DNA of 64,000 nt from contig NZ_MKQR01000016.1 in the NCBI RefSeq assembly GCF_001940455.1, positions 217,125 to 281,124 of the forward strand. The letters run 5' to 3'. This document shows positions 28,383 through 43,377 of this stretch, one piece after another (positions within the stretch are counted from its first letter, which is position 1; each line of letters begins with the position of its first letter). This stretch comes from Actinokineospora bangkokensis (lineage in GTDB: Bacteria; Actinomycetota; Actinomycetes; Mycobacteriales; Pseudonocardiaceae). Under the pieces are notes generated by a model. That model was not told the DNA's origin and searched no databases. It saw nothing but the letters and a program-made list of their open reading frames with translations. The position numbers and the translations under genes are program-made.

Positions 28383-28726
28383 CGCCGCTGCTGGTCGCGC
28401 TCGGGGCCGCGGTGGGGGCGCCCGCCCGCTACCTGGTGGACCGCGCCGTGGACCGGTGGGTGGGCACCCGGTTCCCCGCGGGGACGGTGGTGGTGAACGT
28501 CGTGGGGAGCTTCGTGCTCGGGGTCGTGGCGGGGCTCCCGGCCGGGCCCGCGGTGTCGGCCCTGGTCGGCACCGGCTTCTGCGGCGCGTTGACGACGTAC
28601 TCGACGTTCGGGTTCGACGCGTTCCGGCTCGCGCGGGAGAAGCGGGTCGTGGTGGCGGCGGCCTACGTCGTGGGGAGCTTGGTGCTGGGGCTGACAGCGG
28701 CCTGGGTGGGCATGCGCGTCGCGTGA
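28379..28726 (+). CDS. crcB: fluoride efflux channel subunit CrcB/FluC (second copy)
   Basis: A 115-residue partner of the preceding gene with the same fold: APARYLVDRAVDRWV, 'VVVNVVGSFVLGVVAG', 'GFCGALTTYSTFGFDAF'. GTG at 28379 overlaps the upstream stop. Tandem non-identical crcB genes usually encode opposite-topology halves of a heterodimeric channel; the visible charge pattern differs between the two copies, consistent with this. It converges with the ABC-FhuF fusion gene, 3 bases apart. Confidence 0.95.
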   Translation: MTPLLVALGAAVGAPARYLVDRAVDRWVGTRFPAGTVVVNVVGSFVLGVVAGLPAGPAVSALVGTGFCGALTTYSTFGFDAFRLAREKRVVVAAAYVVGSLVLGLTAAWVGMRVA

Positions 28727-28729
28727 ACT

Positions 28730-29953
28730 TCAGCAGGCCCGGTCCATGGCGGCGCGCTGTCCCAGTGGGCAGTCATGGCACGTGGTCGCCGCGCTGGTGC
28801 GGTAGTGCAGGCAGCAGCTGCGGCGGACCCCCTCGGATGTGAGCGCCCCGCGCAGCTCGGGCAGCTGGACGAGGCCCCGGGTCGCGGGATCTGGTGAGGC
28901 GGCGAGGCGGTGGGCGAGCGACGCGGCGACGTTGCCCCACATCAGCGGCACCGGAAGCTTGGCGGTGGTGCGCAGCGCGTCGTGGAGGGGGTGCAAGCGG
29001 TCCCGCAGGACGCGGGTCAGCAGCGGGAGGGCCGCGGGCGTCCGCCAGCCCCTCGGTTCCGGCAGTGAGAGCCGGATCGTGGTCGTGGCGTCGGCGCGCA
29101 CCCGCAACCTGCTGAGGTCCGGCACCACGCCCGGGGCGCCCAGGGCGAGCGAGACCAGCGCGGCCACCAAGCGGAAGTGCAGCAGCGACGCGGCCACCCG
29201 GCGCTCCTGGGTGCCGACGACCGCCGCGGCCGAGTCGATGAGCTGGGACAACGCGGCAGACCCCGCGGTCAGCCGGGGCAGGGGCACGCCCTCGTCGGCG
29301 GTGTCGAGGTAGCGGCAGCCAGCGGCGGCCTCCGCGATGGCGCGGCGGACGTCCTCCTCCGGGGCGACCCGGATCTCCCGCGCGGCGGCTTCCTCGGCGG
29401 GTTCGGTGGGGACCGGGTGCCAGCGGGGGCGCTGCGCGACGGCCAGGGCGGGCCTGCCCGCGCTCACGTGCGGGAGCAGGCCCGCGCGGGTCAACTGCTC
29501 CGGGGTGCCCGTCCGCAGGCCACCCGCCTGCGTGAGCAGCCAGACGGAGTCCGCCAGGTCGCGGACCAGGTGCGGGTCGCGGGTGCTCACGAGCACCGTG
29601 CGGTTGCGGGCGCGGGCCAGGCCGTGCAGGTGGTCGGCCAGGCGGGCGCGGGCGTGCGGGTCCAGCGCGGTCTCGGGGCTGTCGACCAGCACCAGGGCGG
29701 GCGGCACCTGCGCCTCCGGGAAGGTGACGAGCCGCGCCCGACGGGGGCGTTCAGCCGCGGGCAGGGCCGTGAGGTCGGTGCCGTCCAGGGACACCGCGCC
29801 CGCGAGGACGGGGTGCAGGCCCGCGAGGGCGCCCAGCAGCGTCGACTTTCCCGTGCCCGCAGGGCCCAGCACCACCGTCACCGCGCCCGCGCGGGCGTGC
29901 GCGGTGCGGTCGCGCAGCACCACGCGGTCGCCGTGGCCGACGCTGAGGTTCAT
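28730..29953 (-). CDS. truncated ABC-type ATPase fused to FhuF-like ferric-siderophore reductase
   Basis: A 407-residue protein in two parts. Residues about 1-155 resemble an ABC ATPase: Walker A GPAGTGKST (30-38), Walker B PALVLVDSPE (Asp91), 'STRDPHLV' in the H-loop place. Only about 53 residues separate Walker A and B, instead of about 120, so the helical domain with the LSGGQ signature is missing and the switch His is Arg. Residues about 175-407 resemble FhuF-type reductases, ending C-C-x10-C-x2-C (Cys380, 381, 392, 395) for a [2Fe-2S] cluster. It probably reduces an imported ferric chelate; the ATPase role is unclear. ATG 29953 lacks an RBS; GTG 29968 has GAGGA upstream. Divergent from the ATP-grasp operon. 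Confidence 0.75.
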   Translation of the reverse strand: MNLSVGHGDRVVLRDRTAHARAGAVTVVLGPAGTGKSTLLGALAGLHPVLAGAVSLDGTDLTALPAAERPRRARLVTFPEAQVPPALVLVDSPETALDPHARARLADHLHGLARARNRTVLVSTRDPHLVRDLADSVWLLTQAGGLRTGTPEQLTRAGLLPHVSAGRPALAVAQRPRWHPVPTEPAEEAAAREIRVAPEEDVRRAIAEAAAGCRYLDTADEGVPLPRLTAGSAALSQLIDSAAAVVGTQERRVAASLLHFRLVAALVSLALGAPGVVPDLSRLRVRADATTTIRLSLPEPRGWRTPAALPLLTRVLRDRLHPLHDALRTTAKLPVPLMWGNVAASLAHRLAASPDPATRGLVQLPELRGALTSEGVRRSCCLHYRTSAATTCHDCPLGQRAAMDRAC

Positions 29954-30054
29954 CAGGTGGACACACACAGGGGTGAATCCTCGCTCACATGAGGTAATTT
30001 TCGGTACCTGGAGAAAAGGGCCGTTCACGAATCTGCTCACACCAGGCTGGATGG

Positions 30055-30119
30055 CATTTCGCGCGTCGATGGGACGAGATTTTGACGAACCTCCCGACAT
30101 TTCGCGAGTCGGCGTGACG
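30055..30119. repeat. 22-bp direct repeat in the promoter region of the ATP-grasp operon
   Basis: CATTTCGCG-n-GTCG-n4-GACG occurs at 30055-30076 and 30098-30119, 43 bp apart (about four helical turns), 18 of 22 positions equal. It lies in the 322-bp gap between the divergent ABC-FhuF gene and the ATP-grasp operon, a region of lower GC than its surroundings. It may bind a regulator; no classical IdeR/DmdR iron box was found. Confidence 0.45.
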
Positions 30120-30275
30120 CGGATCACTTCTGACGCGGCAATTCGGGTGAACACCAAGAAATCCGCGCGAACGCGGGAACTGGACGGCGTCGCGGTACGA
30201 CGCGCACGCGGGCGGGAACCGAACCGCCCCTGCGCCCGACCACTGGGTGTCGGTTGGGGCGGACGAGGAGGTCTG

Positions 30276-31484
30276 GTGGCTGTCGCGGCGCTGGAGGCGT
30301 TGACGTTCGGGCTCGGGCGGCTGGTGGACGCGGCCGAGGACGCGGGCCACCGGCTGTGGCTGCTGACCGGCGTGCGCGGGGTGTACCGGCACGAGCTGTC
30401 CACACTGGACCCGGCCAGGCTGGAGGTGCTGGACATCGACACCCACGACACCGCGGCCTGCGAGGACGCGCTCAAGGGCATCCCCGACCTGGCAGGCCTC
30501 GTCAACTCCACCGACACGTGGCTGCGCGCGGGCGCCGACCTGGCCGCGCGCTTCGGCCTCCCCGGCCCCGACCCCGCCGCCGTGCGCACCATCCGCGACA
30601 AGCACGCCGTCCGCACCGTCCTGCGCGAGCGCGGCCTCACGCGGGTGCGGTCGGTGGAGGTGCCTGGCGGTGCGCGGGCGCGGGAGGTGCTGGCCGATTT
30701 CGGCTACCCGTTCGTGCTGAAGGACTCCGCGGGCACCGGGTCGAAGAACGTGTGGGCGGTGCGCTCAGCCGACGAGCTGGAGACCGCGCTCGCGGAGTCG
30801 AGCCGCGCGGCGCTGATGGGCGGGCTCTTCGCCGAGTCGCTGGTGCTCGGACCGGTCTTCAGCGCCGAGACGCTGAGCTGGGCCGGTGAGACGCGGCTGC
30901 TCGGCGTCACCGGGCGGCTGATCTCGCACCGGTGGTTCGGGCGCGAGGACCTGATGTCCTTCCCCGCCGACCTGCCCGCCGCCGACCGCGACGCCGTCGC
31001 CGCGTGGGTGGCCGACGTGCTCGCCGCGGTGGGCCACGACCGCGGGTTCGCCCACGTCGAGTTCGCGCTGACCGACGAGGGCCCCGAGCTGGTGGAGGTG
31101 AACGCGCGCATCGGCGGGTGCCTGGCGGGCGAGGCGCTGTGCCGGTCGCTGGGCACCAACGTCTACCGCGCGGTGGTGGACGTGGCGCTGGGGCGGCGCC
31201 CCGCGCTGCTCGACGCCGACCTGCCCGAGCACGGGCGCCCGTCGGCGGTCGTGCTGGTGTACCCGGAGCGCACCGGCACCTTCACCGGGGTCGAGGGCGT
31301 CGACCGGCTCGGCGCCTACCCCGGGTCGCCGGAGTGGTTCCCCACCATGGCCGAGGGCACCGAGGTCACCCAGCTGGGTGATCAGCGGGCCAGCTCCGGG
31401 CTGCTCATGGCGGAGGCGGGCACCACGGAGCTGGCCATCTACCGCGCGCTCGCGGCGGCGAACGCGCTGCGGCCGCTGACCTGA
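30276..31484 (+). CDS. ATP-grasp ligase (carboxylate-amine ligase type)
   Basis: A 402-residue ATP-grasp enzyme forming an amide or peptide bond through an acyl-phosphate. The central domain has YPFVLKDSAGTGSKNVW (Lys149, glycine-rich ATP loop), then 'DEGPELVEVNARIGGCLAGEAL' with the Mg/ATP ligands Glu274, Asn276, Arg278. The sequence is of the carnosine-synthase/L-amino-acid-ligase sort. GTG at 30276 has GAGGAGG 4 bases upstream. First gene of an operon with an MFS exporter and a flavin oxygenase; probably joins building blocks of the inferred metallophore. Confidence 0.9.
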   Translation: MAVAALEALTFGLGRLVDAAEDAGHRLWLLTGVRGVYRHELSTLDPARLEVLDIDTHDTAACEDALKGIPDLAGLVNSTDTWLRAGADLAARFGLPGPDPAAVRTIRDKHAVRTVLRERGLTRVRSVEVPGGARAREVLADFGYPFVLKDSAGTGSKNVWAVRSADELETALAESSRAALMGGLFAESLVLGPVFSAETLSWAGETRLLGVTGRLISHRWFGREDLMSFPADLPAADRDAVAAWVADVLAAVGHDRGFAHVEFALTDEGPELVEVNARIGGCLAGEALCRSLGTNVYRAVVDVALGRRPALLDADLPEHGRPSAVVLVYPERTGTFTGVEGVDRLGAYPGSPEWFPTMAEGTEVTQLGDQRASSGLLMAEAGTTELAIYRALAAANALRPLT

Positions 31485-31500
31485 CCACCGCGGGCCGGTG

Positions 31501-32691
31501 ATGTTCGCCAAGCTGCGCCAGGTCAGCGGGGTCCAGCGCTTCCTGCTCGCCAGCTCCTTCGTGACCACCCTGGGCAGCTTCGCGGTGCTGCCGTACATGT
31601 CGGTGCTGCTGGAGCGGCGGTTGGGCTTCGGCCTGGGCGCGGTGGGCACGGTCCTCGCCGTCACCTCCTTCCTCCAGTTCGCTGGGTGCGTCGCGGGGGC
31701 CGGGGTGGCGGAGTGGGCGGGTCTGCAACGCACGCTGCTGGTGGCGCTGGTGCTGCACGTGCTGGGCTTCGGCGGGTTCCTGGCGGGCCTGCACTGGCCC
31801 GCGGCCACCGTCGCCGGGCTGATCAGCATCTCCTGCGGGTCCGCGCTCTACCTGCCCGCCGCCAAGGCGTACCTGGTCGCGGGCGTGGACGAGGAGCGCC
31901 GCCCGCTGCTGCTGTCGATGAGCAACTCGGCGCTGAACTCCGGGCTGGCGCTGGGACCGGTGGTGTCCGGGCCGTTCGTGCTCGACCGGTCGGGGGTGGT
32001 GTTCGGCGTTGTCGCGGCCTTGTTCGCGGTGATGGCGGTCGGGCACGCGCTGCTCCCGCGGGAGGGCCCGGAGGCGCGCGAGGGCGTCGGCGGGCAGCCG
32101 TGGCGGGTGCTGAGCGGGATCGCGGTCGTCCCGTTCTCCGTGACCGGGTTGACGATCTACCTGCACATGTTCTTCTACTACTACCTGCCGGTGTTCACCG
32201 TGCCGCGCGTGTCGTCGTCGTTCTACGGCGCGGTGCTCATGGCGCACTCGATCGGGCTGGTGGTGCTGCAACCGCTGCTGGCCGAGCGGGTCGGGCGGAT
32301 GCGGTACTCCACCGCGGTGCTGCTGGGCTTCGGCGCGATGGCCGCGGGGATGGCGGTGCTGGCCACCGGCGGGGCCGCGGGCATCGCGGCGGGGACCATG
32401 GTGATCTGCGCGGGCGAGGCGGTGCTGTTCCTCAAGAACGACCTGGAGGCGCTGGGGCGGTCCCGGCGCTCCTCGGCCGTGGTGTTCGGCCAGCAGCGGC
32501 TCGCCTACGGGCTCGGCGCGTTCGCCAGTTCCCTGCTGGGCGGCGCCGGGTACGCCGCGCTCGACGGCGCGGGCCGGGCCCCGGTGTTCTGGTTGGCGGT
32601 GGCCGCGCAGTGCGTGGTGCTGCCCCTGGTGTTGCTGGCCGCGGTCCGGGTCGACCGGGTGCCGCGCGCGGAGATGGTGAGGGGAACATGA
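31501..32691 (+). CDS. MFS transporter, probable exporter of the cluster product
   Basis: A 396-residue major-facilitator protein with about 12 hydrophobic segments. The N-half begins FLLASSFVTTLGSFAVLPYM and the loop 'PAAKAYLVAGVDEERRPLLL' is in the position of the conserved MFS motif after TM4; the central loop is near residue 190. It starts 17 bases after the ATP-grasp stop and overlaps the next gene by 4 bases (ATGA), so it is cotranscribed and probably carries the made compound out of the cell. The best start is ATG 31501; no clear RBS. Confidence 0.9.
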   Translation: MFAKLRQVSGVQRFLLASSFVTTLGSFAVLPYMSVLLERRLGFGLGAVGTVLAVTSFLQFAGCVAGAGVAEWAGLQRTLLVALVLHVLGFGGFLAGLHWPAATVAGLISISCGSALYLPAAKAYLVAGVDEERRPLLLSMSNSALNSGLALGPVVSGPFVLDRSGVVFGVVAALFAVMAVGHALLPREGPEAREGVGGQPWRVLSGIAVVPFSVTGLTIYLHMFFYYYLPVFTVPRVSSSFYGAVLMAHSIGLVVLQPLLAERVGRMRYSTAVLLGFGAMAAGMAVLATGGAAGIAAGTMVICAGEAVLFLKNDLEALGRSRRSSAVVFGQQRLAYGLGAFASSLLGGAGYAALDGAGRAPVFWLAVAAQCVVLPLVLLAAVRVDRVPRAEMVRGT

Positions 32692-33833
32692 GCGAGCACC
32701 TGGCCGCCGCGGCGGCCGTGGCCGACCGGCTGCGCGCCGACGCCGCCGAGCGGGACCGGGCGGCCCGGCCGCCGGTGCGCGAGGTGGGCCTGCTGCGCGA
32801 CGCGGGGCTGCTGGGCGTGCGGCCCGACGACCACGCCACCACGCACGCGGTGGTGCGGGTCGTGGCGGCGGCCGACGCCTCGATCGGGCACCTGCTGGCC
32901 TACCACTACCTGCACCTGTGGCGGGTCGGACTGTTCGACCACGGCGGCGCCGCGCGGCGGATCTGGCGCGACACCGCGGCCCGCGGCTGGTTCTGGGGCG
33001 GGGCCAGCAATCCCGGTGACGTGCTCACCGTCCGGCCCGAGGGGGGCAGGCTCCTGCTAAGCGGCACGCGGGCCTTCGCCACCGGCTGCGCGGTGGGCGA
33101 CCGGCTCGTGGTCAACGCGACCCGCACCGACACCGGCGCCAAGCTCACCCTCGACGTCGACGCGCGCGCCCCCGGCGTCCACCACCCGCACGACTGGGAC
33201 AACACCGGGCAACGCCTCACCGCCAGCGGCAGCGTGCGGTTCACCGACGTGGTCGTCGACGAGGACCAGGTGGTCGGCATCCTGCCGACGGACCCGGACG
33301 ACCCGCGCACGCCGCGGCTGATGCTGTCCTCGATCGGCTACCAGTCCGGGCTGGCGCAGGTGCTCGTGGGGCTCACCGAGGGCGCGCTGGCGGCGGCCGC
33401 CGAGTACACGCGCACGACCACGAAGCCGTTCGCGCTCAGCGGGGTGGACAGGGCGGTCGACGACCCGTACGTGCTGGCGGGCTACGGCGGGGCCGTCGCG
33501 CAGACCCGCGGCGCGCAGCTCGCCGTCGAAGCTGGGATCGCCGCCCTGCAAGCCGCGTCCGACGCGGGCCCGGCGTTGACACCGCGGCAGCGCGGCGAGA
33601 CCGGCGTGGTCGTGTCCGTGGGCAAAGTGCTGGCCTGCGACACCGCCAACCGGGTCACAGCGGAAGTCCTGGAGTTCACCGGTGCCCGCGCCACGGCCAC
33701 CGAGCACGGCTTCGACCGCTTCTGGCGCAACGCCCGCACGCTCACCCTGCACGACCCCGTGGCGTACAAGGCCAAGGAGATCGGCGCGCATTACCTGACC
33801 GGGCAGCTGCCCACCACCACCGCCTTCAGCTGA
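32688..33833 (+). CDS. acyl-CoA-dehydrogenase-fold flavin monooxygenase (DszC/SfnB type)
   Basis: A 381-residue protein with the acyl-CoA dehydrogenase fold but without the catalytic Glu motif. It has 'DASIGHLLAYHYLHLWRVGLF', 'GWFWGGASNPGDVL', 'WDNTGQRLTASGSVRFTDVVV' and 'FTGARATATEHGFDRFWRNARTLTLHDPVAYK', typical of two-component FMN/FAD monooxygenases (DszC, SfnB) and of amine N-oxygenases such as KijD3. In this operon N-oxygenation of an amine to a metal-binding group would make sense. ATGA overlap with the MFS gene. A separate flavin reductase is not visible nearby. Confidence 0.85.
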   Translation: MSEHLAAAAAVADRLRADAAERDRAARPPVREVGLLRDAGLLGVRPDDHATTHAVVRVVAAADASIGHLLAYHYLHLWRVGLFDHGGAARRIWRDTAARGWFWGGASNPGDVLTVRPEGGRLLLSGTRAFATGCAVGDRLVVNATRTDTGAKLTLDVDARAPGVHHPHDWDNTGQRLTASGSVRFTDVVVDEDQVVGILPTDPDDPRTPRLMLSSIGYQSGLAQVLVGLTEGALAAAAEYTRTTTKPFALSGVDRAVDDPYVLAGYGGAVAQTRGAQLAVEAGIAALQAASDAGPALTPRQRGETGVVVSVGKVLACDTANRVTAEVLEFTGARATATEHGFDRFWRNARTLTLHDPVAYKAKEIGAHYLTGQLPTTTAFS

Positions 33834-33836
33834 CGC

Positions 33837-33880
33837 GCGCGAACCGGGGTGGCGCCGAGAGGCACCACCCCGGTTCGCGC
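33837..33880. terminator. bidirectional hairpin terminator, 16-bp stem
   Basis: GCGCGAACCGGGGTGG (33837-33852) pairs perfectly with CCACCCCGGTTCGCGC (33865-33880). It lies between the stop codons of the flavin oxygenase (33833) and the converging methyltransferase (33888). Confidence 0.9.
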
Positions 33881-33887
33881 TGCTCCG

Positions 33888-34634
33888 CTAGCGGACCGCC
33901 ACCAGCACGACGTCGTTGCCCGAGCGCCACACCGTGCCGACCTCGCTGAACCCGGCGTCGCGCAGCAGCTGCTCGTGCGGGCCCACGCCCCACTCGGTGA
34001 TCCCGTGCCGGGGCCCGCGCCGCGCACGCTCGGCGAACGCCTCCGCGAGCTGCGGCTCGGCCGCGGCGGCGTCCCACCAGCTGGTCCACTCCTCGTTGTC
34101 GGTCACGCCCACCCGCTCGGCGCGCGCGTCGAGGACCGCGGTCTCCAGCTTGGCCACGGTCGGCTGGGCGTCGTAGAGGTTGTCCCCGTTGACCAGCACG
34201 CCCCCCGGGCGCAGCAGCGCGAACACCTCCTCGTACACCGCGCCGAGCCGGTTCTCCGGCAGCCAGTGCAGCGCCGTGGTGGACACCGCGACGTCCACCG
34301 GACCGGGCAGGTCCAGGCCACCGGACCACCCGGCGGCGGCCAGGTCGCCGTCGACGAAGCGCACGGTGTCGCCGTACCCGGCGCGGGCCAGGGCGAGCAG
34401 CACCGGGTCCTGGTCCACGCCGACCACCCTGGCCTTGGGCAGCCGCGCGGCCACCCGGGTCGCCAGCGAACCGGGGCCGCAGCCCAGGTCCAGCACCAGC
34501 GGCTCGGCGGCGTCGGCGGTCACCGCCGCCACCACGTCGCCGATGACGGTGAAGCGCTCCTCGCGGTCGGCGATGTAGCGCTCCTGCTGGCGGTCCCACC
34601 GGTCGACCCAACCGCGCGCGGTCTGGGTGTCCAT
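33888..34634 (-). CDS. SAM-dependent methyltransferase
   Basis: A 248-residue class I methyltransferase of the trans-aconitate-methyltransferase-like kind. Motif I LVLDLGCGPGSLA, 'RVVGVDQDPVLLALAR', then 'DVAVSTTALHWLPENRLGAVYEEVFALLRPGGVLVNGDN', a typical motif IV/post-II run. ATG at 34634. It is transcribed against its neighbours between the two halves of the inferred metallophore region and diverges from a second methyltransferase. Substrate unknown; it may or may not belong to the cluster. Confidence 0.9.
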   Translation of the reverse strand: MDTQTARGWVDRWDRQQERYIADREERFTVIGDVVAAVTADAAEPLVLDLGCGPGSLATRVAARLPKARVVGVDQDPVLLALARAGYGDTVRFVDGDLAAAGWSGGLDLPGPVDVAVSTTALHWLPENRLGAVYEEVFALLRPGGVLVNGDNLYDAQPTVAKLETAVLDARAERVGVTDNEEWTSWWDAAAAEPQLAEAFAERARRGPRHGITEWGVGPHEQLLRDAGFSEVGTVWRSGNDVVLVAVR

Positions 34635-34839
34635 GCCTGCTCCCTCCCCGAACCGGGTCGTGGGTGCGCGTCCGCGGCGCGGGCGCCCCCAGGGGTTGTC
34701 GGATCGCGCAGGGGTGTGGTTCCCGTTGCTCATCCCGGGAAGATCCGCATCCCGCCGGGAACCAACCGGGCGATCGCCCCGACTGCTCACCCAACAGCGA
34801 CCGGGGGTCCGGGTCAACCGGCGACAGCGGGAGGCGCGC

Positions 34840-35583
34840 ATGCAGTGGTTCGAGGACGACGTGCTGTGGTCCGGGTTCTCGGAGGTCGTGTTCTCCCCGG
34901 CGCGGGCGGCGCGCGCGGCCACCGCGGTCGAGGAGTCGCCCCTGCTGCGCTTCCCCGCCGGTGCGCGGGTTCTCGACCAGTGCTGCGGCCCGGCGGTGTT
35001 CACGGTGCCGCTGGCGGCCGAGGGCTACCGGGTGACGGGGATCGACCTGAGCCCGGTGATGCTCTCGCGCGCGGAGAAGGCGCTGGCCGACGCGGGTGTG
35101 GAGGCCGAGCTGGTCCAGGCGGACATGCGCGAGTTCGCCCGCGCAGGCGCGTTCGACGCGATCGTCAACCTCTACACCTCGTTCGGCTACTTCGACGACC
35201 ACGAGGACAACCAGCGCACCTTGCAGAACGCCTACGACTCACTGGCCCCCGGTGGTGTCCTCGTCATCGACCTGATGGGCAAGGAGACCTACGCGCGCTG
35301 GGCGGGTGAGGCCAAGGCGGTGCCCCTCCCGGATGGTGGGAAGGTCTTCATGCACGACCAGATCCTCGACAACTGGACGCGCTACCGCACCGACTGGACC
35401 CTGGTGCGCGGTTCCGAGGCCCGGTACACCCACCTGCTGTGCTGGGTCTACTCGGGAGCCGAGCTGATGGCGATGTTCCGCCAGGCGGGTTTCACCGAGG
35501 TGGAGTGCTTCGGGGACTTCGACGGCTCCCCGTATGACAACAACGCGGACCGGCTCATCGTGCGCGGCAGGAAGGCCGCTTGA
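34840..35583 (+). CDS. SAM-dependent methyltransferase
   Basis: A 247-residue methyltransferase. Motif I is LDQCCGPAVFTVPLA (unusual D-Q-C-C-G-P), the acidic residue is in VTGIDLSPVMLSRAE, motif IV is 'FDAIVNLYTSFGYFDDHEDN', followed by 'LAPGGVLVIDLMGKE'. The end, 'GDFDGSPYDNNADRLIVRGRK', is typical of UbiE/Erm-neighbour small-molecule methyltransferases. ATG at 34840 has GGGAGG upstream. It precedes the siderophore importer genes by 106 bases on the same strand and could modify the same compound. Confidence 0.9.
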   Translation: MQWFEDDVLWSGFSEVVFSPARAARAATAVEESPLLRFPAGARVLDQCCGPAVFTVPLAAEGYRVTGIDLSPVMLSRAEKALADAGVEAELVQADMREFARAGAFDAIVNLYTSFGYFDDHEDNQRTLQNAYDSLAPGGVLVIDLMGKETYARWAGEAKAVPLPDGGKVFMHDQILDNWTRYRTDWTLVRGSEARYTHLLCWVYSGAELMAMFRQAGFTEVECFGDFDGSPYDNNADRLIVRGRKAA

Positions 35584-35596
35584 CAGCGGCCGTCGA

Positions 35597-35628
35597 TCAC
35601 CGGTTGGTTCCAGGGGGTGGACCGGTGA
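35597..35628. promoter_or_regulatory. 8-bp inverted repeat before the importer operon
   Basis: TCACCGGT (35597-35604) and ACCGGTGA (35621-35628) are perfect complements separated by 16 bases, in the 106-bp gap before the FecCD permease gene. It may be an operator or a weak hairpin. Confidence 0.4.
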
Positions 35629-35689
35629 CCGCCGTCACCCGCCAGCGCCCCGCGATCACCGCCCGGACGAGCACCCGAGAGGACCCGCC

Positions 35690-36829
35690 GTGACGAGCGC
35701 CCGAACCGAGACCGCGACCGGTGCCGCGGCCGACCCCGCCACGACCGGCCCCCCGTCGGTCCGGCCCTCCCCCGCCGAGGCCGAGCGCGCCAAGCAGCGC
35801 AGGCTGGTGTGGGTGACGGCCGGGTTGTCCGCGCTGCTCGCGGTGTCGGTGCTGGTGGCGATCGCGTTGGGCGCCAGCGTGATCCCGTTCCGCGAGACGC
35901 TGCACTACCTCGGCGTGGCGCTGACCGGCGGCACGATCTCCCCCGACGAGGTGCCGCGCTACTCGGTGGTGTGGCAGGTGCGCACCCCGCGCGTGCTGCT
36001 CGCGGTGCTGGTGGGCGCCGGGCTGAGCGTCATCGGCGTCGCGTTGCAGGCCATGGTGCGCAACGCCCTCGCGGAACCGTTCGTGCTCGGCATCTCCTCC
36101 GGCGCCTCGGTGGGCGGCTCGGCGGTGGTGATCTTCGGCGCCACGGCCGGGTTGGGCGTCTACACCACCTCCGTCGCCGCGCTGGCCAGCGCCCTGGCGG
36201 CGGCGGTGCTGGTGTACCTGGCGGCGCGCACGCGCGCCGGGCTGACCCCGCTGCGGCTGGTGCTGACCGGCATCGCGATGGCCTACGGCTTCCAGGCCGT
36301 GACCGGGCTGCTGGTCTTCCTGTCCCCCAACTACACCGACGCGGTGTCCGGGGTGCTGTTCTGGTTGATGGGCAGCCTGGGCGGGGCCACCTGGGGCGCC
36401 CTCCCGCCGTCGGCCATCGGCGTCGTGACCTGCGTGGTGGTGCTGCTGTGGCGCAGCCGCACCCTCGACGTGCTCTCGCTGGGCGACGAGACCGCGGCCA
36501 GCCTGGGGGTGGACGCGGGCAGGACGCGGCGCTGGGTGTTCGTGCTCACCTCGGTCGTCACCGGGCTGCTGGTGGCGGTCAGCGGCGCGGTCGGGTTCGT
36601 GGGCCTCATCATGCCGCACCTGGTGCGCATGGTCGTGGGCTCCAGCCACCGGCGCGTGCTGGTGGTGGCCCCGCTGGCGGGCGCGGTGTTCATGGTGTGG
36701 GCCGACGTGGTGGCCCGCACCTTCTTCTCGCCGCAGGAGCTGCCGCTGGGCGTGGTGACCGCGCTCGTGGGCGTCCCGGTGTTCGTGGTGCTGCTGCGGC
36801 GGCGCGGCTACCTGTTCGGGGGCCGGTGA
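35690..36829 (+). CDS. FecCD-family siderophore ABC transporter permease
   Basis: A 379-residue inner-membrane permease with about 9-10 helices. It has a long cytoplasmic N-terminus (Pro/Ala rich), then VLVAIALGASVIPF, 'RTPRVLLAVLVGAGLSVIGVALQAMVRNALAEPFVLGISSGA', the hallmark of FecCD/BtuC-type iron-siderophore permeases, and 'GFVGLIMPHLVRM', the coupling-helix region contacting the ATPase. GTG at 35690. As the only permease it probably works as a homodimer. The ATPase start overlaps its stop (TGATG). Confidence 0.95.
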   Translation: MTSARTETATGAAADPATTGPPSVRPSPAEAERAKQRRLVWVTAGLSALLAVSVLVAIALGASVIPFRETLHYLGVALTGGTISPDEVPRYSVVWQVRTPRVLLAVLVGAGLSVIGVALQAMVRNALAEPFVLGISSGASVGGSAVVIFGATAGLGVYTTSVAALASALAAAVLVYLAARTRAGLTPLRLVLTGIAMAYGFQAVTGLLVFLSPNYTDAVSGVLFWLMGSLGGATWGALPPSAIGVVTCVVVLLWRSRTLDVLSLGDETAASLGVDAGRTRRWVFVLTSVVTGLLVAVSGAVGFVGLIMPHLVRMVVGSSHRRVLVVAPLAGAVFMVWADVVARTFFSPQELPLGVVTALVGVPVFVVLLRRRGYLFGGR

Positions 36830-37662
36830 TGGACCTGCGGCTCGACGCCCTGTGCGTCGACATCGACGGCGCGCGGCTGGTGCACGAGCTGGACATCGAC
36901 GTGCCCAGCGGCAAGGTCGTGGGGCTGCTGGGCCCCAACGGCAGCGGCAAGTCGACCGCGCTGCGCTGCGTCTACCGCGCGCTGCGGCCCAGCGCGGGCG
37001 CGGTGCTGCTCGACGGCACCGACCTGGCCGGGCTGGCCCTGCGCGACAGCGCGCGCTCCATCGCGGCGATGACCCAGGACAGCCACGCCGAGCTGGACTT
37101 CACCGTCGAGGAGATCGTCGCCCTGGGCCGCGCCCCGCACCTGCGCGACAGCCAGGCCCTCGGCGCCGAGGAGCACGAGCTGTGCCGGTGGGCGATGGAG
37201 CAGACCGAGGTCGGGCACCTGGCCGACCGCAGCGTGCTCACCCTCTCCGGCGGCGAGCGGCAGCGGGTGCTCATCGCCCGCGCCCTGGTGCAGCAGCCCC
37301 GGGTCCTGGTGCTCGACGAGCCGACCAACCACCTCGACATCCGCCACCAGGTCGACCTGGCCGCGCTGCTGCGCCGCCTCGGCGTCACCGTCGTCGTCGC
37401 CCTGCACGACCTGAACCTGGCCGCGGCGGCCTGCGACGCGTTGGCCGTGCTCAGCCGCGGGCGCCTGGTCGCCACCGGCACCCCGCACGAGGTGCTCACC
37501 CCCGAGCTGGTGCACCAGGTGTTCGGGGTGCAGGCGTCCATCGTGCGCCACCCCAGGACCGGCGCGACCCAGCTGCTCTACGACCTCTCCCCCGTCGAGG
37601 CCGTCGAGGGCCCCGGCACCGACCCCGACCCCGCAGCCGTCCCGGAGGGCAGCCGTCCATGA
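36829..37662 (+). CDS. siderophore ABC transporter ATP-binding protein
   Basis: A 277-residue FecE/FepC-type ATPase, complete in contrast to the truncated ABC part at 28.7-30 kb. Walker A GLLGPNGSGKSTALR, Q-loop 'AAMTQDSHAELDFTVEEIV', signature LTLSGGERQRVLIARALVQQ, Walker B VLVLDEPTNHLD, H-loop 'VALHDLNLA'. The gene overlaps both neighbours (TGATG, ATGA), so permease, ATPase and binding protein are translationally coupled. Confidence 0.97.
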   Translation: MDLRLDALCVDIDGARLVHELDIDVPSGKVVGLLGPNGSGKSTALRCVYRALRPSAGAVLLDGTDLAGLALRDSARSIAAMTQDSHAELDFTVEEIVALGRAPHLRDSQALGAEEHELCRWAMEQTEVGHLADRSVLTLSGGERQRVLIARALVQQPRVLVLDEPTNHLDIRHQVDLAALLRRLGVTVVVALHDLNLAAAACDALAVLSRGRLVATGTPHEVLTPELVHQVFGVQASIVRHPRTGATQLLYDLSPVEAVEGPGTDPDPAAVPEGSRP

Positions 37663-38654
37663 CCCGCACCCCACGCCGCCACCTCGTCGCGACCCTCGCG
37701 GTGGTCGGCGCGCTCACCGCCGGATGCGGTGCCACCGTCGCGGACACCGGGCGGCCGTCCGCCGACGTCAGCGTCACCGACTGCGGCGAACAGCTGTCCT
37801 ACCCCACCCCGAAGCAGCCGGTCGCCTACGACGTCAGCGCCATCGAGAAGATGTTCTCCCTGGGCCTGGCCGACCGGATGCGCGGCTACGTCGTCAACGC
37901 CCTGTTCGACGGCTCGATCGACAGCTCCCCCTGGGCCGCGGACTACCGCAAGGTCCCCCGGCTGGGCACCGGCCGCATCTCCAAGGAGATCGTCGTCGAC
38001 GCCAAGGCCGATTGGGTGATGTCCTACTGGGGCGGCGGGTTCAGCGAGGAGCGGGGCATCACCCCCGCGCTGCTGAAGCAGATCGGCATCAACAGCTACG
38101 TGCAGACCGAGAGCTGCTTCGGCTACGGCGACCGCAAACCGGTGGCCCCCATGGACTCGGTCTTCCTGGACCTGGAGAACCTGGGCCGCATCTTCGGCGT
38201 GGAGCAGAAGGCCACCGAGGTCGTCTCCGGGCTCAAGGCGCGCCTGGACAAGCTCAAGGCCGGCATCCCGCGGGGCACCACCCCCGCTCGCGTGCTGGTC
38301 TACGACTCGGGGCAGGACGCGCCCTACACCGCGGGCAAGTACGCCTCCCCCACCGGCGTCATCGAGGCCGCGGGCGGCAGGAACGTGCTCGACGGGGTGG
38401 AGAACGGGTGGACGACGGTGGGCTGGGAGACCGTCGCCGCGGCCAACCCCGAGGTCGTCGTGGTCATCGACTACGGCAACGAGTCGGCGGGGGACAAGGA
38501 AGCGTTCGTCAAGGCCCACCCCGCGCTCAAGGGCGTCCCGGCGGTGACCCAGGACCACTTCGTCGTGCTCAACTACGGCGAGGCGGTCAGCGGTCCGCGC
38601 AACGTCGACGCGGCCGAGAAGCTCGGGGCCTACCTGCGATCCATCGGGAAGTGA
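37659..38654 (+). CDS. siderophore-binding lipoprotein of the ABC importer
   Basis: A 331-residue FepB/FhuD-like solute-binding lipoprotein. Lipobox L-T-A-G-C near residues 20-24. The two-lobed helical-hinge fold shows 'VPRLGTGRISKEIVVDAKADWV', 'ESCFGYGDRKPVAPMDSVFLDLENLGRIFG', 'NPEVVVVIDYG' and 'FVVLNYGEAVSGPRNVDAAEKL'. It binds the metal chelate outside the membrane and delivers it to the permease. ATGA overlap with the ATPase; the kinase gene starts 6 bases after its stop, linking uptake with biosynthesis. Confidence 0.93.
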   Translation: MTRTPRRHLVATLAVVGALTAGCGATVADTGRPSADVSVTDCGEQLSYPTPKQPVAYDVSAIEKMFSLGLADRMRGYVVNALFDGSIDSSPWAADYRKVPRLGTGRISKEIVVDAKADWVMSYWGGGFSEERGITPALLKQIGINSYVQTESCFGYGDRKPVAPMDSVFLDLENLGRIFGVEQKATEVVSGLKARLDKLKAGIPRGTTPARVLVYDSGQDAPYTAGKYASPTGVIEAAGGRNVLDGVENGWTTVGWETVAAANPEVVVVIDYGNESAGDKEAFVKAHPALKGVPAVTQDHFVVLNYGEAVSGPRNVDAAEKLGAYLRSIGK

Positions 38655-38660
38655 GCCGCC

Positions 38661-39587
38661 GTGACCACCGCAGCGCAGACCTCGCTCGCGCCTGACCCGC
38701 CCGTGCACGCCCGCACGCCGCTGACCACGGTGTCCGGGGTGTGCAACGGAACCCTGGGCGAGCTGTTCCAGGGCCCGGTGCGCCACCGCGGGCAGCCGGG
38801 GATCGGCCTGGTGTCCTTCCCGGTCGACCGCTACGCCTTCGCGCACTTCAGCCCGGACGGCTCGGCGGCGGGCGACCCGCTCCCGGACCAGGCCAAGTCG
38901 GCCGCCGCGGTGCGGCTGTTCTGCGAGCACTACGGGGTGGTCCTGCCGCCGGGGCGGTGGTCGCGGCACACGGAGCTGGACGTGGGGGTGGGCATGGCCA
39001 GCTCCACAGCGGACATCGTCGCCACGCTGCGCTGCCTGTTCGCCCTGTTCGGCCTGCCCTGGGACACCGGGGTGGTGCGGGCGGTGCTGCACGGCATCGA
39101 ACGCGCCGACAGCGTATTCCTCGACGAGTTCGCGCTCTACCTGTCCGACCGGCACGAGGTCGTCGCGCCGCTGGGCGACGGCATCGGGTTCCACACCTGC
39201 TACGTGGTGGAGCCCGGCGCGGTCGACACCACGGCGGTGACCCCGCTGCTGCTGGAGCACTACCGGCGCCGGGTGGAGCCCTACCGGCGCTGCCTGGACG
39301 GGATGCTGGCCGCCTTCCGCCGCGACGACCCGGTGGGGGTGGCCCGCGCCGCGTCCACCAGCGCGGCGCTGTCGCAGGAGGTGCTGCCCAAGGCGAGCTA
39401 CGACGCCGTCATGGGTCACCGCCGCGAGTTCGGCGCGGACGGGGTGTTCGTCGCCCACACCGGCCGGGTCATCGGCTACCTGTTCGCCCGGCGCCTGGGC
39501 CGCCGCCGGATGGACGAGCTGTCCGCGTTCTTCCACGGTCTCGGCCACCAGTGCTCGTTCGCCTGGGGTGGCCATGGTCGTGCATGA
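38661..39587 (+). CDS. PduX-like amino-acid kinase (GHMP superfamily)
   Basis: A 308-residue GHMP kinase closest in motif to PduX, the L-threonine kinase that makes O-phospho-L-threonine. The N-terminal strand is VCNGTLGELFQGPV, the ATP loop VGVGMASSTADI (108-119), and the third motif region is 'GVFVAHTGRVIGYLF'. There is no cobalamin or propanediol gene nearby, so here it probably supplies O-phospho-Ser/Thr to the following SbnA-like enzyme, the job of the unrelated serine kinase SbnI in staphyloferrin B synthesis. GTG at 38661; overlaps the next gene. Confidence 0.85.
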   Translation: MTTAAQTSLAPDPPVHARTPLTTVSGVCNGTLGELFQGPVRHRGQPGIGLVSFPVDRYAFAHFSPDGSAAGDPLPDQAKSAAAVRLFCEHYGVVLPPGRWSRHTELDVGVGMASSTADIVATLRCLFALFGLPWDTGVVRAVLHGIERADSVFLDEFALYLSDRHEVVAPLGDGIGFHTCYVVEPGAVDTTAVTPLLLEHYRRRVEPYRRCLDGMLAAFRRDDPVGVARAASTSAALSQEVLPKASYDAVMGHRREFGADGVFVAHTGRVIGYLFARRLGRRRMDELSAFFHGLGHQCSFAWGGHGRA

Positions 39588-40596
39588 GCACATCACCGAC
39601 GCGGTCAAGGTCCCGCACCTGGTCCGGCTGGGGCCCGGGGTGGTGCTGGCCCGGTTCGAGACCATCAAGGTCTACTCGGCGCTGGCCGCGGTGCGGACCC
39701 TGCTGGAGCGCGGCGTGGTGCGGCCGGGGCAGACCCTGGTGGACAGCTCCAGCGGCATCTACGCCACGTCGCTGGCGCTGGCCTGCCACCGCTACGGGAT
39801 GCGCTGCCACATCGTCGCCTCCACCACCGTCGACGCCGCGGTGCGCGCCCAGCTGGAGGTGCTGGGCGCCACGGTGGACCCGATGCCGCCGTCGGACTCG
39901 CTGGAGCTCGACCAGCGGGCGCGGGTGGCCAGGGTGCGCGAGCTGCTGGCCACCCACCCGGACGCGCACTGGATGCGCCAGTACCACGACGGCGTGCACT
40001 ACCACGGCTACCGGGAGTTCGCCGACCTCGTGCGCGTCGAGCTGGGCACCGACGGGCTCACCGTGGTGGGCGGGGTCGGCTCGGGCGCCTCCACCGGCGG
40101 GGTCACCGGCTACCTGCGCGAGACCGACCCCGCCGTGCGCCTGGTGGGGTTGCAGCCCTTCGGCAGCGTCACCTTCGGCTCGGAGGACTTCCACGACCCG
40201 GAGGCGATCATCGCGGGCATCGGCAGCTCGATCGTGTTCGACAACGTCCACCACGAGCTCTACGACGAGGTCCACTGGGTCGACTTCCGGCACGCGATGG
40301 CCGGGGCGGTGGCGCTGCTGCGCGGGCACGCGGTGTTCGCGGGCCTGTCCACCGGGGCGGCGTACCTGGTGGGGTCGTGGCTGTCCCGGCGCGACCCCGA
40401 CCGCACGCACCTGGTGATCGGCGCGGACACCGGGCACCGGTACGTGGAGAAGGTGTTCGCCCGGCACCGGGAGGCCCCCGACCCCGCCGACCTCGCGCCG
40501 CGGCAGATCGGGGCGCTGTCGGAGCTGAGCATGCCCTGGTCGGCGCTGGCCTGGAACCGCCGCCGCCACACCCCGCCGACCCCCACGCCGGTGTGA
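39574..40596 (+). CDS. cysteine-synthase-family (SbnA-like) PLP enzyme
   Basis: A 340-residue fold-type II PLP enzyme. The Schiff-base Lys is in RFETIKVYSAL (Lys32), and the phosphate-binding loop is 'VVGGVGSGASTGGVTGYLR'. The substrate loop reads DSSSGIYATSLALA, where the usual Asn of S-S-G-N is Ile, an important deviation. SbnA joins O-phosphoserine to glutamate on the way to 2,3-diaminopropionate; the adjacent kinase fits an O-phospho-amino-acid substrate. ATG 39574 overlaps the kinase end by 14 bases; GTG 39568 is also possible. Confidence 0.82.
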   Translation: MVVHEHITDAVKVPHLVRLGPGVVLARFETIKVYSALAAVRTLLERGVVRPGQTLVDSSSGIYATSLALACHRYGMRCHIVASTTVDAAVRAQLEVLGATVDPMPPSDSLELDQRARVARVRELLATHPDAHWMRQYHDGVHYHGYREFADLVRVELGTDGLTVVGGVGSGASTGGVTGYLRETDPAVRLVGLQPFGSVTFGSEDFHDPEAIIAGIGSSIVFDNVHHELYDEVHWVDFRHAMAGAVALLRGHAVFAGLSTGAAYLVGSWLSRRDPDRTHLVIGADTGHRYVEKVFARHREAPDPADLAPRQIGALSELSMPWSALAWNRRRHTPPTPTPV

Positions 40597-40645
40597 CCGG
40601 TTCGTCTGGTTGGAACGGTGCGGCCGATTCCCGCGTCCCACCCGC

Positions 40646-41674
40646 ATGAGCCACCCGCAGCAGCCGCCGCACGACCCCGGCCACCCGCAGTTCGGCCAGC
40701 CGCAGCTCGGTCAGCCCCAGTACGGTCAGCCGCAGTTCGGTCAGCCCCAGTACGGCCAGCCCCAGGGTCAGCCGCAGCCCGGCGGGTTCGGCGCGCCGCC
40801 GCCGGTGCCGCCCAAGGGCAAGACCGGGCCGATCGTCGCGGTGGTGGCGGTCGTGCTGCTGCTGGGCGGGCTGGCGTTCACCGGGTTCGTCGCGCCGGGC
40901 TTCTTCCTGTCCGACGAGACCCCCACCGGGCAGCCGCCCACCTCCGCCCCCACCTCGTCGAGCGCCCCCGCGGACAAGGGCGCCCAGGACGCCGTGAAGG
41001 CGATCGTGGCCGGTTTGGACTCCGGCGACAAGGACGCGCTGGAGGAGCTGGTCTGCTCGAACGCGGACAGCAACGTCGAGAGCGCGATCCGCAGCATCAG
41101 CGCGGTCAAGGGCGCCGAGCTGGTCAAGACCAAGGAGGACGGCGACGACGTCGTCGCCACCGTCAAGGTCACCACCGCCCGGGGCGACGAGGAGGACGAC
41201 GTCACCGTCACCGAGTCCGGCGGTCGCTGGTGCTGGAGCGACATCGCCCGCGCCCGGGGCACCACGACGGGCAAGCCCACCGCGAGCGCCCCCAGGACCA
41301 CCGCGCCCAGGTCGAGCGCCCCCGCCGGGGACGACACCCCCACCGCGGGCGGCAAGCCGATCGACCCGCAGGCCCTGGCGTTCATGCGCGGCTTCCTCGA
41401 CGACCTCAACGCCGGTCGGCTGGAGGGCATGACGAGCAAGCTGTGCGCGGACAGCACGGTCACCCCCGACAAGCTCAAGCAGTTCGTCGAGGACAAGACC
41501 TCGCTGTCCATCGACGCGGCCGAGGACGGCATCTCCTCGGGCCCCGAGTCGTTCCAGGCGTACCTGAAGGGCACCTCGAAGGGCCAGGACATCGAGGGGC
41601 CGTCGGGCAACCTGTGGGTCACCAGCTACGACGGCCCGTGGTGCGTCCACAACCTCCGCGTGGTCACCACCTGA
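40646..41674 (+). CDS. single-pass membrane protein with Gln/Pro repeats and two DUF4878-like extracellular domains
   Basis: A 342-residue protein. Residues 1-58 are a cytoplasmic Pro/Gln/Gly/Tyr tail with G-Q-P-Q-[YFL] repeats (tandem 15-bp DNA repeats at about 40690-40770). One transmembrane helix (VAVVAVVLLLGGLAFTGFVA) follows, then a Ser/Thr/Pro linker and two similar extracellular domains, each with a Cys pair (LVCSNADSN/RWCWSD and KLCADS/WCVHN), separated by another T/S/P linker. They look like lumazine-binding-like DUF4878 domains. Role unknown; such proteins are common in actinomycete envelopes. No clear RBS at ATG 40646. Confidence 0.85.
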   Translation: MSHPQQPPHDPGHPQFGQPQLGQPQYGQPQFGQPQYGQPQGQPQPGGFGAPPPVPPKGKTGPIVAVVAVVLLLGGLAFTGFVAPGFFLSDETPTGQPPTSAPTSSSAPADKGAQDAVKAIVAGLDSGDKDALEELVCSNADSNVESAIRSISAVKGAELVKTKEDGDDVVATVKVTTARGDEEDDVTVTESGGRWCWSDIARARGTTTGKPTASAPRTTAPRSSAPAGDDTPTAGGKPIDPQALAFMRGFLDDLNAGRLEGMTSKLCADSTVTPDKLKQFVEDKTSLSIDAAEDGISSGPESFQAYLKGTSKGQDIEGPSGNLWVTSYDGPWCVHNLRVVTT

Positions 41675-41806
41675 GCTGTCACCGGCGTCACCCGGCCGTC
41701 AGGACGGCGCCAAGAACGCCCGCCCCGGCGTCAAGGTCGCGTCCGGACCAGGTGCGGGGTGGACCCCGCGGGCGTGTGCTGGGGGCACGCACACGAGGAG
41801 GACACG

Positions 41807-43099
41807 GTGACACTGGCGGAGTTGCTGCCCAGCCTGGGCGCGGTCGAACCCCTGACCGGGCAGTGCTGGCCCCGCGGGACCCACCTCGGCCCGGACGCCG
41901 ACCTGGTGGTCGACGGCACGGGCCTGGTGGGCCTCGCGGCGCGCTTCGGGACCCCCTGCCACGTCCTGTCGGAGGGCCACGCCCGCGCGGCCGCCCGGGA
42001 CTTCCGGCGGGCCCTGCCCAGGGCCGAGGTGCTCTTCGCGGGCAAGTCCGCCCCGATCCGCGCCGTCTACTCCTGGATGGCCGACGAGGGCCTGTCCCTG
42101 GACGTCTGCTCGGCGGGCGAGGTCGAGGTGGGCCGGGCGGCGGGCGTGCCCGGCGCCCGGATGGTCCTGCACGGCAACGCCAAGACCGACGACGACCTCA
42201 AGGCCGCCGTGGCCCACGGCGTCCGCCGCGTCGTCGTCGACTCCGCCAGCGAACTGCCCGCCCTCGCCGCGCTGTGCCCGGCGGGCCAGGAAGTCCTCAT
42301 CCGCGTCATCCCCGAGGTCGACGCCCACACCCACGCCGCCATCACCACCGGTGTCCGCGGCCAGAAGTTCGGCGTCCCCGCCGAGGACCTGCCCGCCGTC
42401 GCCGCCGCCATCGCCCGGCACCCCAACCTCACCCTGGTCGGCCTGCACTGCCACATCGGCTCCCAGGTCACCCGCGTGGCGGCCTACGAGACCGCCGTGC
42501 GCAGGATGGTCCACCTGCTGCCCGGCCCGCTGCGCGACCTCGACCTCGGCGGCGGCTTCGCCGCCCCCTACCACCCCGGCGAACCCACCTTCGACGTCCA
42601 GGGCTTCGCCACCCGCGTCCAGATCGCCCTCCAGCAGGAGTGCGCCGCCCGCCGCCTCCCCCAGCCCACCCTCCTGGTCGAGCCGGGACGCTCCATCGTC
42701 GCCAACGCGGGCATCACCCTGTACCGGGTGGTCTCGGTCAAACCCGGCTTCGCCGCGGTGGACGGCGGCATGAGCGACAACCCCCGCCCCTCCCTCTACG
42801 GCGCCCGCTACGCCCCCCGCCTCCTCGGCCGCACCACCCGCGCCCACCGCACCCCCACCACGGTCGTCGGCCGCCACTGCGAATCCGGCGACATCATCGC
42901 CGAGAACGCCCCCCTCCCCGCCGACCTCCACCCCGGCGACCTCCTGGCGGTCCCCGCCACCGGCGCCTACCACACCGCCCTGGCCAGCAACTACAACATG
43001 GTCTGCCGACCCCCCGTCATCTCAGTCCACAACGGACACGCCACCCCCCGCATCCGCCGCGAGTCCCTCTCCGACCTCATGGCGAGGGACCTGGGCTGA
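41807..43099 (+). CDS. diaminopimelate-decarboxylase-family (LysA/SbnH-like) PLP decarboxylase
   Basis: A 430-residue fold-type III PLP decarboxylase. The PLP Lys is in VLFAGKSAP (Lys80), 'LVGLHCHIGSQV' is the His loop, 'LDLGGGFA' and 'LLVEPGRSIVANAG' are phosphate-binding motifs, and 'HCESGDIIAENA' supplies the catalytic Cys of the partner subunit. Either the lysine-pathway enzyme (meso-diaminopimelate to lysine) or, as SbnH in staphyloferrin B synthesis, a decarboxylase of a metallophore intermediate. No other lysine or threonine gene is adjacent. GTG at 41807 has GGAGG 5 bases upstream. Confidence 0.88.
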   Translation: MTLAELLPSLGAVEPLTGQCWPRGTHLGPDADLVVDGTGLVGLAARFGTPCHVLSEGHARAAARDFRRALPRAEVLFAGKSAPIRAVYSWMADEGLSLDVCSAGEVEVGRAAGVPGARMVLHGNAKTDDDLKAAVAHGVRRVVVDSASELPALAALCPAGQEVLIRVIPEVDAHTHAAITTGVRGQKFGVPAEDLPAVAAAIARHPNLTLVGLHCHIGSQVTRVAAYETAVRRMVHLLPGPLRDLDLGGGFAAPYHPGEPTFDVQGFATRVQIALQQECAARRLPQPTLLVEPGRSIVANAGITLYRVVSVKPGFAAVDGGMSDNPRPSLYGARYAPRLLGRTTRAHRTPTTVVGRHCESGDIIAENAPLPADLHPGDLLAVPATGAYHTALASNYNMVCRPPVISVHNGHATPRIRRESLSDLMARDLG

Positions 43100-43229
43100 C
43101 TCCCCCGCTTCCCCTCCCTCTCCAGCACTCTCCCCCCACCCCATCTCTCGCACCTCATCCCAAGCCGCTCACTCTCTTCTCGTGCAGCAGCGCAACCACC
43201 ACCTCGACGCAACACGCCCCACCCGACCT

Positions 43230-43377
43230 GCTCGATGGGGTGGTCCTGTGTAGCTGGGGAAGGCGATCATGTGCTACCCACAGCGGACGGGCGGGCATCT
43301 TTTCAGCCCGCCTTTTCCCGCCCGACAGCACATGATCGCCGCAGGGGCCCCGGCCACACAGGACCACCCCATCGAGC
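43230..43377. repeat. 148-bp palindromic element, copy B
   Basis: The outer stem GCTCGATGGGGTGGTCCTGTGT (22 bp, split here as GCTCGATGGGG and TGGTCCTGTGT, 43230-43251) pairs perfectly with 43356-43377. The inner GGCGATCATGTGCT (43262-43275) pairs with 43327-43340. The element is inverted relative to copy A, shares its inner arms almost base for base, and differs in the outer stem by paired (compensatory) changes. It lies in the 377-bp gap between the lysA-like and kdpE genes, whose left part is pyrimidine-rich and gene-free. Confidence 0.85.

Follow-up and report, generated by a model that had tools for sequence, protein, structure and literature searches.

Staphyloferrin B is built by SbnA, SbnB and SbnH together with synthetases of the NIS (nonribosomal peptide synthetase-independent siderophore) type, and EDDS and EDHA, a class of antiSMASH 7 (EDHA, BGC0002567) that needs no nonribosomal peptide synthetase (NRPS), are metallophores whose SbnA-like first step leads to an N-substituted diaminopropionate. 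The locus analysed here lies between positions 28730 and 43099 of a 64,000-nucleotide stretch of the 7.45-Mb genome of Actinokineospora bangkokensis (contig NZ_MKQR01000016.1; the whole stretch is called the window) and is organised around an SbnA-like pyridoxal phosphate (PLP) enzyme, an ATP-grasp ligase, methyltransferases and a FecCD-family importer. It shares with the staphyloferrin B genes an SbnA-family-like PLP enzyme as well as exporter and importer genes. Unlike them, however, it has different regulation, its enzyme stays far under the cut-off of the SbnA model, no NIS synthetase was found in the locus, and no SbnB (ornithine-cyclodeaminase-like) gene occurs among the open reading frames (ORFs) and domains of 28730-43099; a staphyloferrin-B-type pathway is not supported. 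The likeness to EDDS and EDHA is drawn at the level of their general description. A closer parallel in regulation is the nrp isonitrile lipopeptide chalkophore of Mycobacterium tuberculosis: according to two papers (PMC7924339, PMC9600254), SigC guards that species against copper starvation and activates both ctpB and the nrp operon. The two systems appear alike in control by a SigC-family extracytoplasmic function (ECF) sigma factor, in a copper P-type ATPase within the regulon and in the proposed copper acquisition, whereas nrp consists of an NRPS with isonitrile enzymes and the window has an SbnA-like enzyme, an ATP-grasp ligase, a methyltransferase and a FecCD importer with no NRPS. With moderate confidence, we suggest that a small, nitrogen-rich, amide-bearing copper chelator (a chalkophore) is produced by the locus, exported and taken up again, and that a SigC-like ECF sigma factor whose gene lies in another part of the genome switches the locus on.

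Conservation was assessed over 84 loci, namely the best 80 of 471 relatives from a genome-collection scan with an alignment of the SbnA-like enzyme plus four loci of the same family; the proportions are biased, because the loci were chosen by similarity and some end at contig ends. The SbnA-like gene is found in all 84, the ATP-grasp gene in 83 and the gene of methyltransferase B in 77 (it is missing from four same-family loci), while the transport genes are somewhat less constant: exporter of the major facilitator superfamily (MFS), 58; FecE-type ATPase, 56; FecCD permease, 52; lipoprotein, 47. The core is kept across Streptomyces, Amycolatopsis, Saccharothrix, Kibdelosporangium, Actinokineospora and Sphaerisporangium, and since other genera contain the same combinations of genes, the arrangement goes beyond chance. 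The conserved unit is thus the SbnA-like enzyme, the ATP-grasp ligase and methyltransferase B, often with the MFS exporter and FecCD, and the kinase is optional. The original prediction had expected kinase, SbnA-like, ATP-grasp and FecCD genes to be conserved jointly; the last three do recur together, but the kinase is present in just 34/84 loci and cannot be counted as core. At E <=1e-60, the SbnA-like enzyme was detected in 26/394 sampled genomes of the class and in 7/16 genomes of the genus, the own genome being counted in both. All gene classes listed by the original prediction were recovered, its observation that NRPS and IucA/C-type NIS genes are lacking was borne out for the 12 proteins profiled from the locus, and its general idea of a metallophore-type make-export-reimport locus on an SbnA-like enzyme, an ATP-grasp ligase and a FecCD importer is supported in silico. 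Taken together, the locus is a real and common type of predicted metallophore locus, neither NRPS nor NIS, that is undescribed in the literature searched. In that search, which was thin on subscription papers, nothing was found that joins SbnA, GHMP kinase and ATP-grasp, nothing on a chalkophore with ATP-grasp, and nothing on a cobaltophore or on a cobalamin riboswitch with a metallophore in Streptomyces.

The gene order suggests three transcription units. The first, on the forward strand (30276-33833), would comprise the ATP-grasp ligase (30276..31484), the MFS exporter (31498..32691; PF07690, 52.3 bits) and a flavin oxygenase of the acyl-CoA-dehydrogenase fold (32688..33833; PF08028, 56.8 bits), and the second is probably methyltransferase A alone on the reverse strand (33888..34634; PF13649, 63.3 bits). 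The third (34840-40596, forward) would run from methyltransferase B (34840..35583; PF13649, 69.4 bits) through the FecCD permease (35690..36829; PF01032, 294 bits), the importer ATPase (36829..37662; assigned from its sequence and from tblastn homologues beside FecCD in relatives, with no profile run), the metal-chelate binding lipoprotein (37659..38654; Peripla_BP_2, PF01497, 71.5 bits) and the GHMP kinase (38661..39587; PF00288, 33.9 bits) to the SbnA-like enzyme of the PALP family (39574..40596). Neighbouring genes overlap by 4 nt (MFS/oxygenase), 1 nt (FecCD/ATPase), 4 nt (ATPase/lipoprotein) and 14 nt (kinase/PLP enzyme). Divergent from the ATP-grasp unit lies a reverse-strand gene (28730..29953) in which an FhuF_C domain (PF11575, 25.6 bits) is fused to a short ABC-ATPase domain (PF00005, 37.5 bits).

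The upstream regions of the two large units share the sequence GGGAACC-N16-CGAC, and a scan with the pattern GGGAAC[CT]-N15-17-CG[AT]C found it four times in the 64-kb window, in every case preceding one of the three units of the locus. On the forward strand, two sites (30175..30201, GGGAACT-N16-CGAC, and 30214..30240) lie upstream of the ATP-grasp gene, which starts 35 nt downstream of the second, and another (34757..34783) precedes methyltransferase B and the import, kinase and PLP enzyme operon; the fourth (34698..34724, reverse strand) is located upstream of methyltransferase A. Under a first-order Markov model a mean of 0.065 sites would be expected for the locus, and never more than one appeared in 400 trials. 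Over the 84 loci (1.60 Mb) the pattern occurs 128 times, compared with 12 in reversed sequences, and the promoter is present in 49/84 loci. Called genes following the sites are mainly methyltransferase B (38), then FecCD (8), Ferric_reduct (7), the SbnA-like enzyme (5), MFS (4) and FhuF (2), and 48 of the 128 sites have no called start at the proper distance. Bases outside the pattern are conserved as well, with a C before the -35 element in 89/106 sites and a T four bases past the -10 element in 92/106. This SigC-type motif was derived de novo, and no published SigC consensus was found in PMC7924339. Neither an exact nor a loose site stands before the FhuF fusion in the window, and a dyad search 5′ of the operons returned mostly lineage-specific repeats.

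An ECF sigma factor gene (family f9) is present in 22/84 loci, 21 of which carry the promoter and none the cobalamin riboswitch discussed below. Three of the 22 proteins were profiled, and SigC (NF007231) was their first or second NCBIfam match at 163-179 bits. The genome of A. bangkokensis encodes one intact homologue, 52% identical to the ECF protein of one relative (L056), with a pattern site between its gene and a divergent zf-HC2 gene.

Copper genes accompany the promoter in several relatives. All 23 loci for CtaG (copper/cytochrome oxidase assembly) found in 12 genomes were inspected, and a site precedes CtaG in two of them, Kibdelosporangium aridum (L228) and Saccharothrix obliqua (L229), both followed by a CopA-type ATPase, whereas the remaining 21 have neither a site nor a following CopA-type ATPase; the CopA-type genes of these two and of L211 were labelled by eye, not by model. 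In S. algeriensis a CopD/CtaG-CopA arrangement starts 10 nt after a site, a case reached from the motif side, and in L072 a PCuAC copper chaperone and a copper-type P-ATPase adjoin the MFS gene. In the own genome a further site precedes the gene of a PepSY_TM protein, and in S. microflavus one lies upstream of a small membrane protein whose downstream neighbour is PepSY_TM-like (by eye). It is on regulatory grounds that copper appears to be the best-supported metal for the window. Separately, DJ-1/PfpI-like genes (by eye) in the own genome (L156) and in S. algeriensis (L182) lie 60-90 nt downstream of a SigC-type site, and could be a further regulon member.

Several observations weigh against copper control of the window. 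Genome-wide, forward and backward pattern counts are 23 and 12 in the own genome, 31 and 17 in S. algeriensis (a modest enrichment), and 14 and 20 in S. microflavus (none); with enrichment weak or absent on this scale, single sites outside the loci are no evidence alone. At least one of the CtaG loci (L216) has truncated upstream DNA, the profiled ECF proteins fall under the SigC cut-off of 219, and the SigC-like gene of the own genome is located outside the locus. Within the genus, L246 has the core with neither an exact nor a loose promoter sequence, and the SbnA-like gene of L251 comes with no ATP-grasp match in 19 kb. Furthermore, cobalt is suggested for 29 kinase-bearing relatives by their cobalamin riboswitch, iron is the metal with which FhuF and Ferric_reduct are generally associated, and the 35 loci with a Ferric_reduct gene (one member profiled) have a riboswitch in 24 cases vs the promoter in nine. 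Six same-genus loci were considered in all, of which L247, L248 and L249 appear identical to L078, L107 and L124 and therefore bring no new evidence.

As to chemistry, the ATP-grasp protein is, by its LAL_C2 domain, profile and predicted fold, an L-amino acid ligase, and would attach an amino acid through an amide bond. With the described ligases (BL00235/3vot, BacD, RizA) it shares the ATP-grasp ligase fold, LAL_C2 and a gene adjoining an MFS gene; unlike them, it is joined with predicted diaminoacid-type chemistry and an importer. For the SbnA-like enzyme the best model is TIGR03945, yet at 143 bits vs a cut-off of 350, and a profile search aligned it with SbnA structures (E 5e-22 to 6e-23). 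Its K32 is invariant in 15/15 aligned sequences and aligns with the PLP lysine of SbnA. The predicted structure is of the cysteine-synthase fold with SbnA among many tied matches, a comparison that cannot separate SbnA from cysteine synthases. We word its role from the family: after phosphorylation of Ser or Thr by the kinase, the SbnA-like enzyme could eliminate the phosphate and form, by addition of an amine nucleophile, an N-substituted 2,3-diaminoacid of the aminopolycarboxylate type, and kinase-free relatives might use O-phosphoserine from primary metabolism. Since no lyase or SbnB was found in the locus, the N-substituted diaminoacid may stay whole, as in aminopolycarboxylate chelators. 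Methyltransferase B, whose weak matches include a glycine/sarcosine N-methyltransferase (NF051855, 59 vs 350 bits), would tailor the product, in the window together with methyltransferase A and the flavin oxygenase. The MFS protein could then export the product, the lipoprotein-FecCD-ATPase system could take the metal complex back in, and the metal might be released by reduction through FhuF, or through Ferric_reduct or PepSY_TM proteins encoded in relatives and at other places in the genome. The FhuF-type [2Fe-2S] fusion is probably an accessory reductase for metal release; separate FhuF genes occur in 3/84 loci, all Saccharothrix. If this scheme is right, a new biosynthetic type would join the short list of chalkophores, SigC-type copper-starvation control would reach far outside mycobacteria, and the combination of SbnA-like, ATP-grasp, methyltransferase and FecCD genes with either switch could serve as a marker for copper, and perhaps cobalt, metallophores.

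Two elements of the original prediction are not supported by this comparison. The flavin oxygenase, taken there for an N-oxygenase, is a lineage extra, confined to 2/84 loci, both Sphaerisporangium, and the best NCBIfam matches of the enzyme, DszC and SfnB, are far under their cut-offs (DszC model, 212 vs 850 bits). The LysA/SbnH-like decarboxylase (41807..43099, forward), considered as a cluster enzyme, was rejected: it exceeds the curated cut-off for diaminopimelate decarboxylase (TIGR01048, 366.7 vs 297.9 bits), recurs in 1/84 loci (a 34% match about 9 kb away) and is absent from the examined stretches of Sphaerisporangium album and S. melleum, so that it is better described as a LysA-type neighbour. 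A higher-scoring lysA (473.5 bits) is found elsewhere in the same genome.

The kinase had been called PduX-like and of the GHMP type. The second label holds through its GHMP_N domain, the only domain found, while no PduX model matched; no NCBIfam family and no PDB sequence match (E 0.001) were obtained. It forms its own clade, in which, by alignment, RADSVFLDEFAL replaces the PTDGV.Y of distant kinases beside argininosuccinate lyase-like genes. Close kinases (57-63% identity) occur in just four others of 297 same-family genomes, and 4/4 same-family loci keep the succession kinase, SbnA-like, ATP-grasp, MFS; two of them have a second ATP-grasp gene before MFS. These second genes (L045, 5974-7212, reverse; L046, 13244-14482, forward), both in same-family riboswitch loci, would make a further ligation step possible. 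In L043 and L044, the quartet stands beside ergothioneine biosynthesis-like genes (by eye), and no importer, promoter site or riboswitch was found with it.

A GHMP kinase, an SbnA-like enzyme and argininosuccinate lyase together form the route to 2,3-diaminobutyrate (DABA). Distant kinases (~30% identity) share loci with SbnA-like, argininosuccinate lyase-like (by eye) and ATP-grasp genes in other clusters, and the pairing of a distant kinase with an SbnA-like enzyme (about 30-38%) in L048, L050, L052 and L053 resembles the window. Unlike the window, where argininosuccinate lyase was not found in the locus, these DABA-type sets have an argininosuccinate lyase-like gene (by eye) and in some cases an NRPS, and their kinases differ from the window's clade at the conserved motif. 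L048 and L050 (5.8-10.8 kb in each) hold PanD-like, SbnA-like, argininosuccinate lyase-like, ATP-grasp and GHMP kinase genes (labels partly by eye), apparently a separate small Pseudonocardiaceae cluster with no NRPS seen within 20 kb.

One alternative holds that the whole family, including the window, serves cobalt, that the product is a cobaltophore made when B12 is short, and that the ECF branch merely changed the switch. The 84 loci divide into 48 with the SigC-type promoter only, 29 with a riboswitch only, one with both and six with neither, and the riboswitch goes with the kinase, being present in 29/34 kinase loci, before kinase or importer, vs 1/50 kinase-free loci. In all kinase-bearing Streptomyces loci but L127, the kinase is preceded by a cobalamin riboswitch (RF00174 or model R1), and usually a second one precedes the adjacent FecCD-type importer; these loci show no SigC-type promoter before their core genes. 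RF00174 scores above the gathering threshold before the kinase operon in L076, L079, L092, L098 and L118, before the importer operon in L103, and, in the window's own family, before a FecCD-ATPase-lipoprotein-kinase-SbnA operon in L045 and L046. Model R1, built from 10 riboswitches that it then finds and biased to that Streptomyces lineage, places riboswitches before 27 kinase operons. The RF00174 elements stand directly before operons in relatives, and the window has the kinase. Nevertheless, no cobalamin riboswitch was detected in the window at the gathering threshold, at a permissive threshold over 28000-44000 or with the relatives-derived model; copper genes of relatives are found with the SigC-type promoter; and among 13 kinase-free loci scanned with Rfam at the gathering score, L103 alone has a riboswitch (5′ of the importer, with the promoter 5′ of the SbnA-like gene). 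Cobalt for the window was dropped once the shared SigC-type promoter had been found, and a family-wide cobaltophore seems unlikely.

Copper for the window and cobalt for the kinase-bearing relatives could be accommodated in one history. The SbnA tree holds 83 rows (the window and 82/84 loci, with L086 and L129 left out; the root of the drawing is arbitrary), in which the riboswitch branch (32 rows, split support 93/70) lies on one side, and the kinase-free SigC branch (48 rows, 100/99) on the other, of a clade (98/89) made up of two Sphaerisporangium loci and the window, the latter on a long branch (0.39). These closest relatives, S. album and S. melleum, show the same order from the ATP-grasp to the SbnA-like gene, including the oxygenase and methyltransferase A (found in 5/84 loci), with no MFS match in S. 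album. Given the tree position and a kinase under SigC-type control, the window and the two Sphaerisporangium loci look like an intermediate type. We tentatively raise the possibility, at somewhat worse than even chances, that one scaffold free of NRPS and NIS was rewired into a SigC-type copper branch and a kinase-bearing cobalamin-riboswitch branch with a dedicated cobaltophore, of which the window and Sphaerisporangium would be surviving intermediates.

It is also quite improbable that the locus makes no metallophore at all, its product being a secreted and re-imported small peptide-like metabolite such as a signal, an antimetabolite or a cofactor precursor. The best NCBIfam match of the lipoprotein, a putative F420-0 transporter protein (156 vs 392 bits), and distant kinase/SbnA/ATP-grasp sets in or near NRPS clusters (by eye) could be read in this way, but regulation is of a metal type in both branches, and reductase-type genes share the promoter, with seven sites before Ferric_reduct and two before FhuF.

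FecCD importers often carry iron siderophores, and the FhuF fusion, the Ferric_reduct gene in 35/84 loci and the SbnA-like enzyme would fit an ordinary iron siderophore locus, an explanation made very unlikely by SigC-type or B12 control in 78/84 loci and by the lack of an iron box (<=5 mismatches) in the window, the seven matches in the 84 loci not standing before core genes. Regulation by iron or zinc is likewise not borne out: neither an iron box nor a Zur box (<=3-4 mismatches) was found in the window, where SigC-type promoters point to copper, and the four patterns scanned gave 18 matches in the 84 loci, none of which precedes a core gene of the biosynthesis. In one relative (L106), a weak Zur-like match falls where a FecE-like gene begins.

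Some minor features accompany these loci. In the FhuF fusion the ABC-ATPase part is short, its best PF00005 stretch stopping at profile position 91/137, and the signature region expected between the Walker A and B motifs could not be seen by eye; this is perhaps a degenerate ATPase. Downstream of the SbnA-like gene, an ORF with no Pfam match (40646..41674, forward) would encode a Gln/Pro-rich N-terminus followed by an apparent membrane anchor and a domain likewise unmatched in Pfam. In two riboswitch relatives, a third cobalamin riboswitch lies by a small ORF beside the Ferric_reduct gene (L079, 7254-7431; L098, 7272-7451; both reverse). The small ORF of L079 contains a ferredoxin-like motif, CRDCCCGSPK, and this locus also has a ZigA/CobW-type GTPase (516.6 bits vs a cut-off of 600), while L098 has a SodF-like gene (by eye) with a sodF sRNA.

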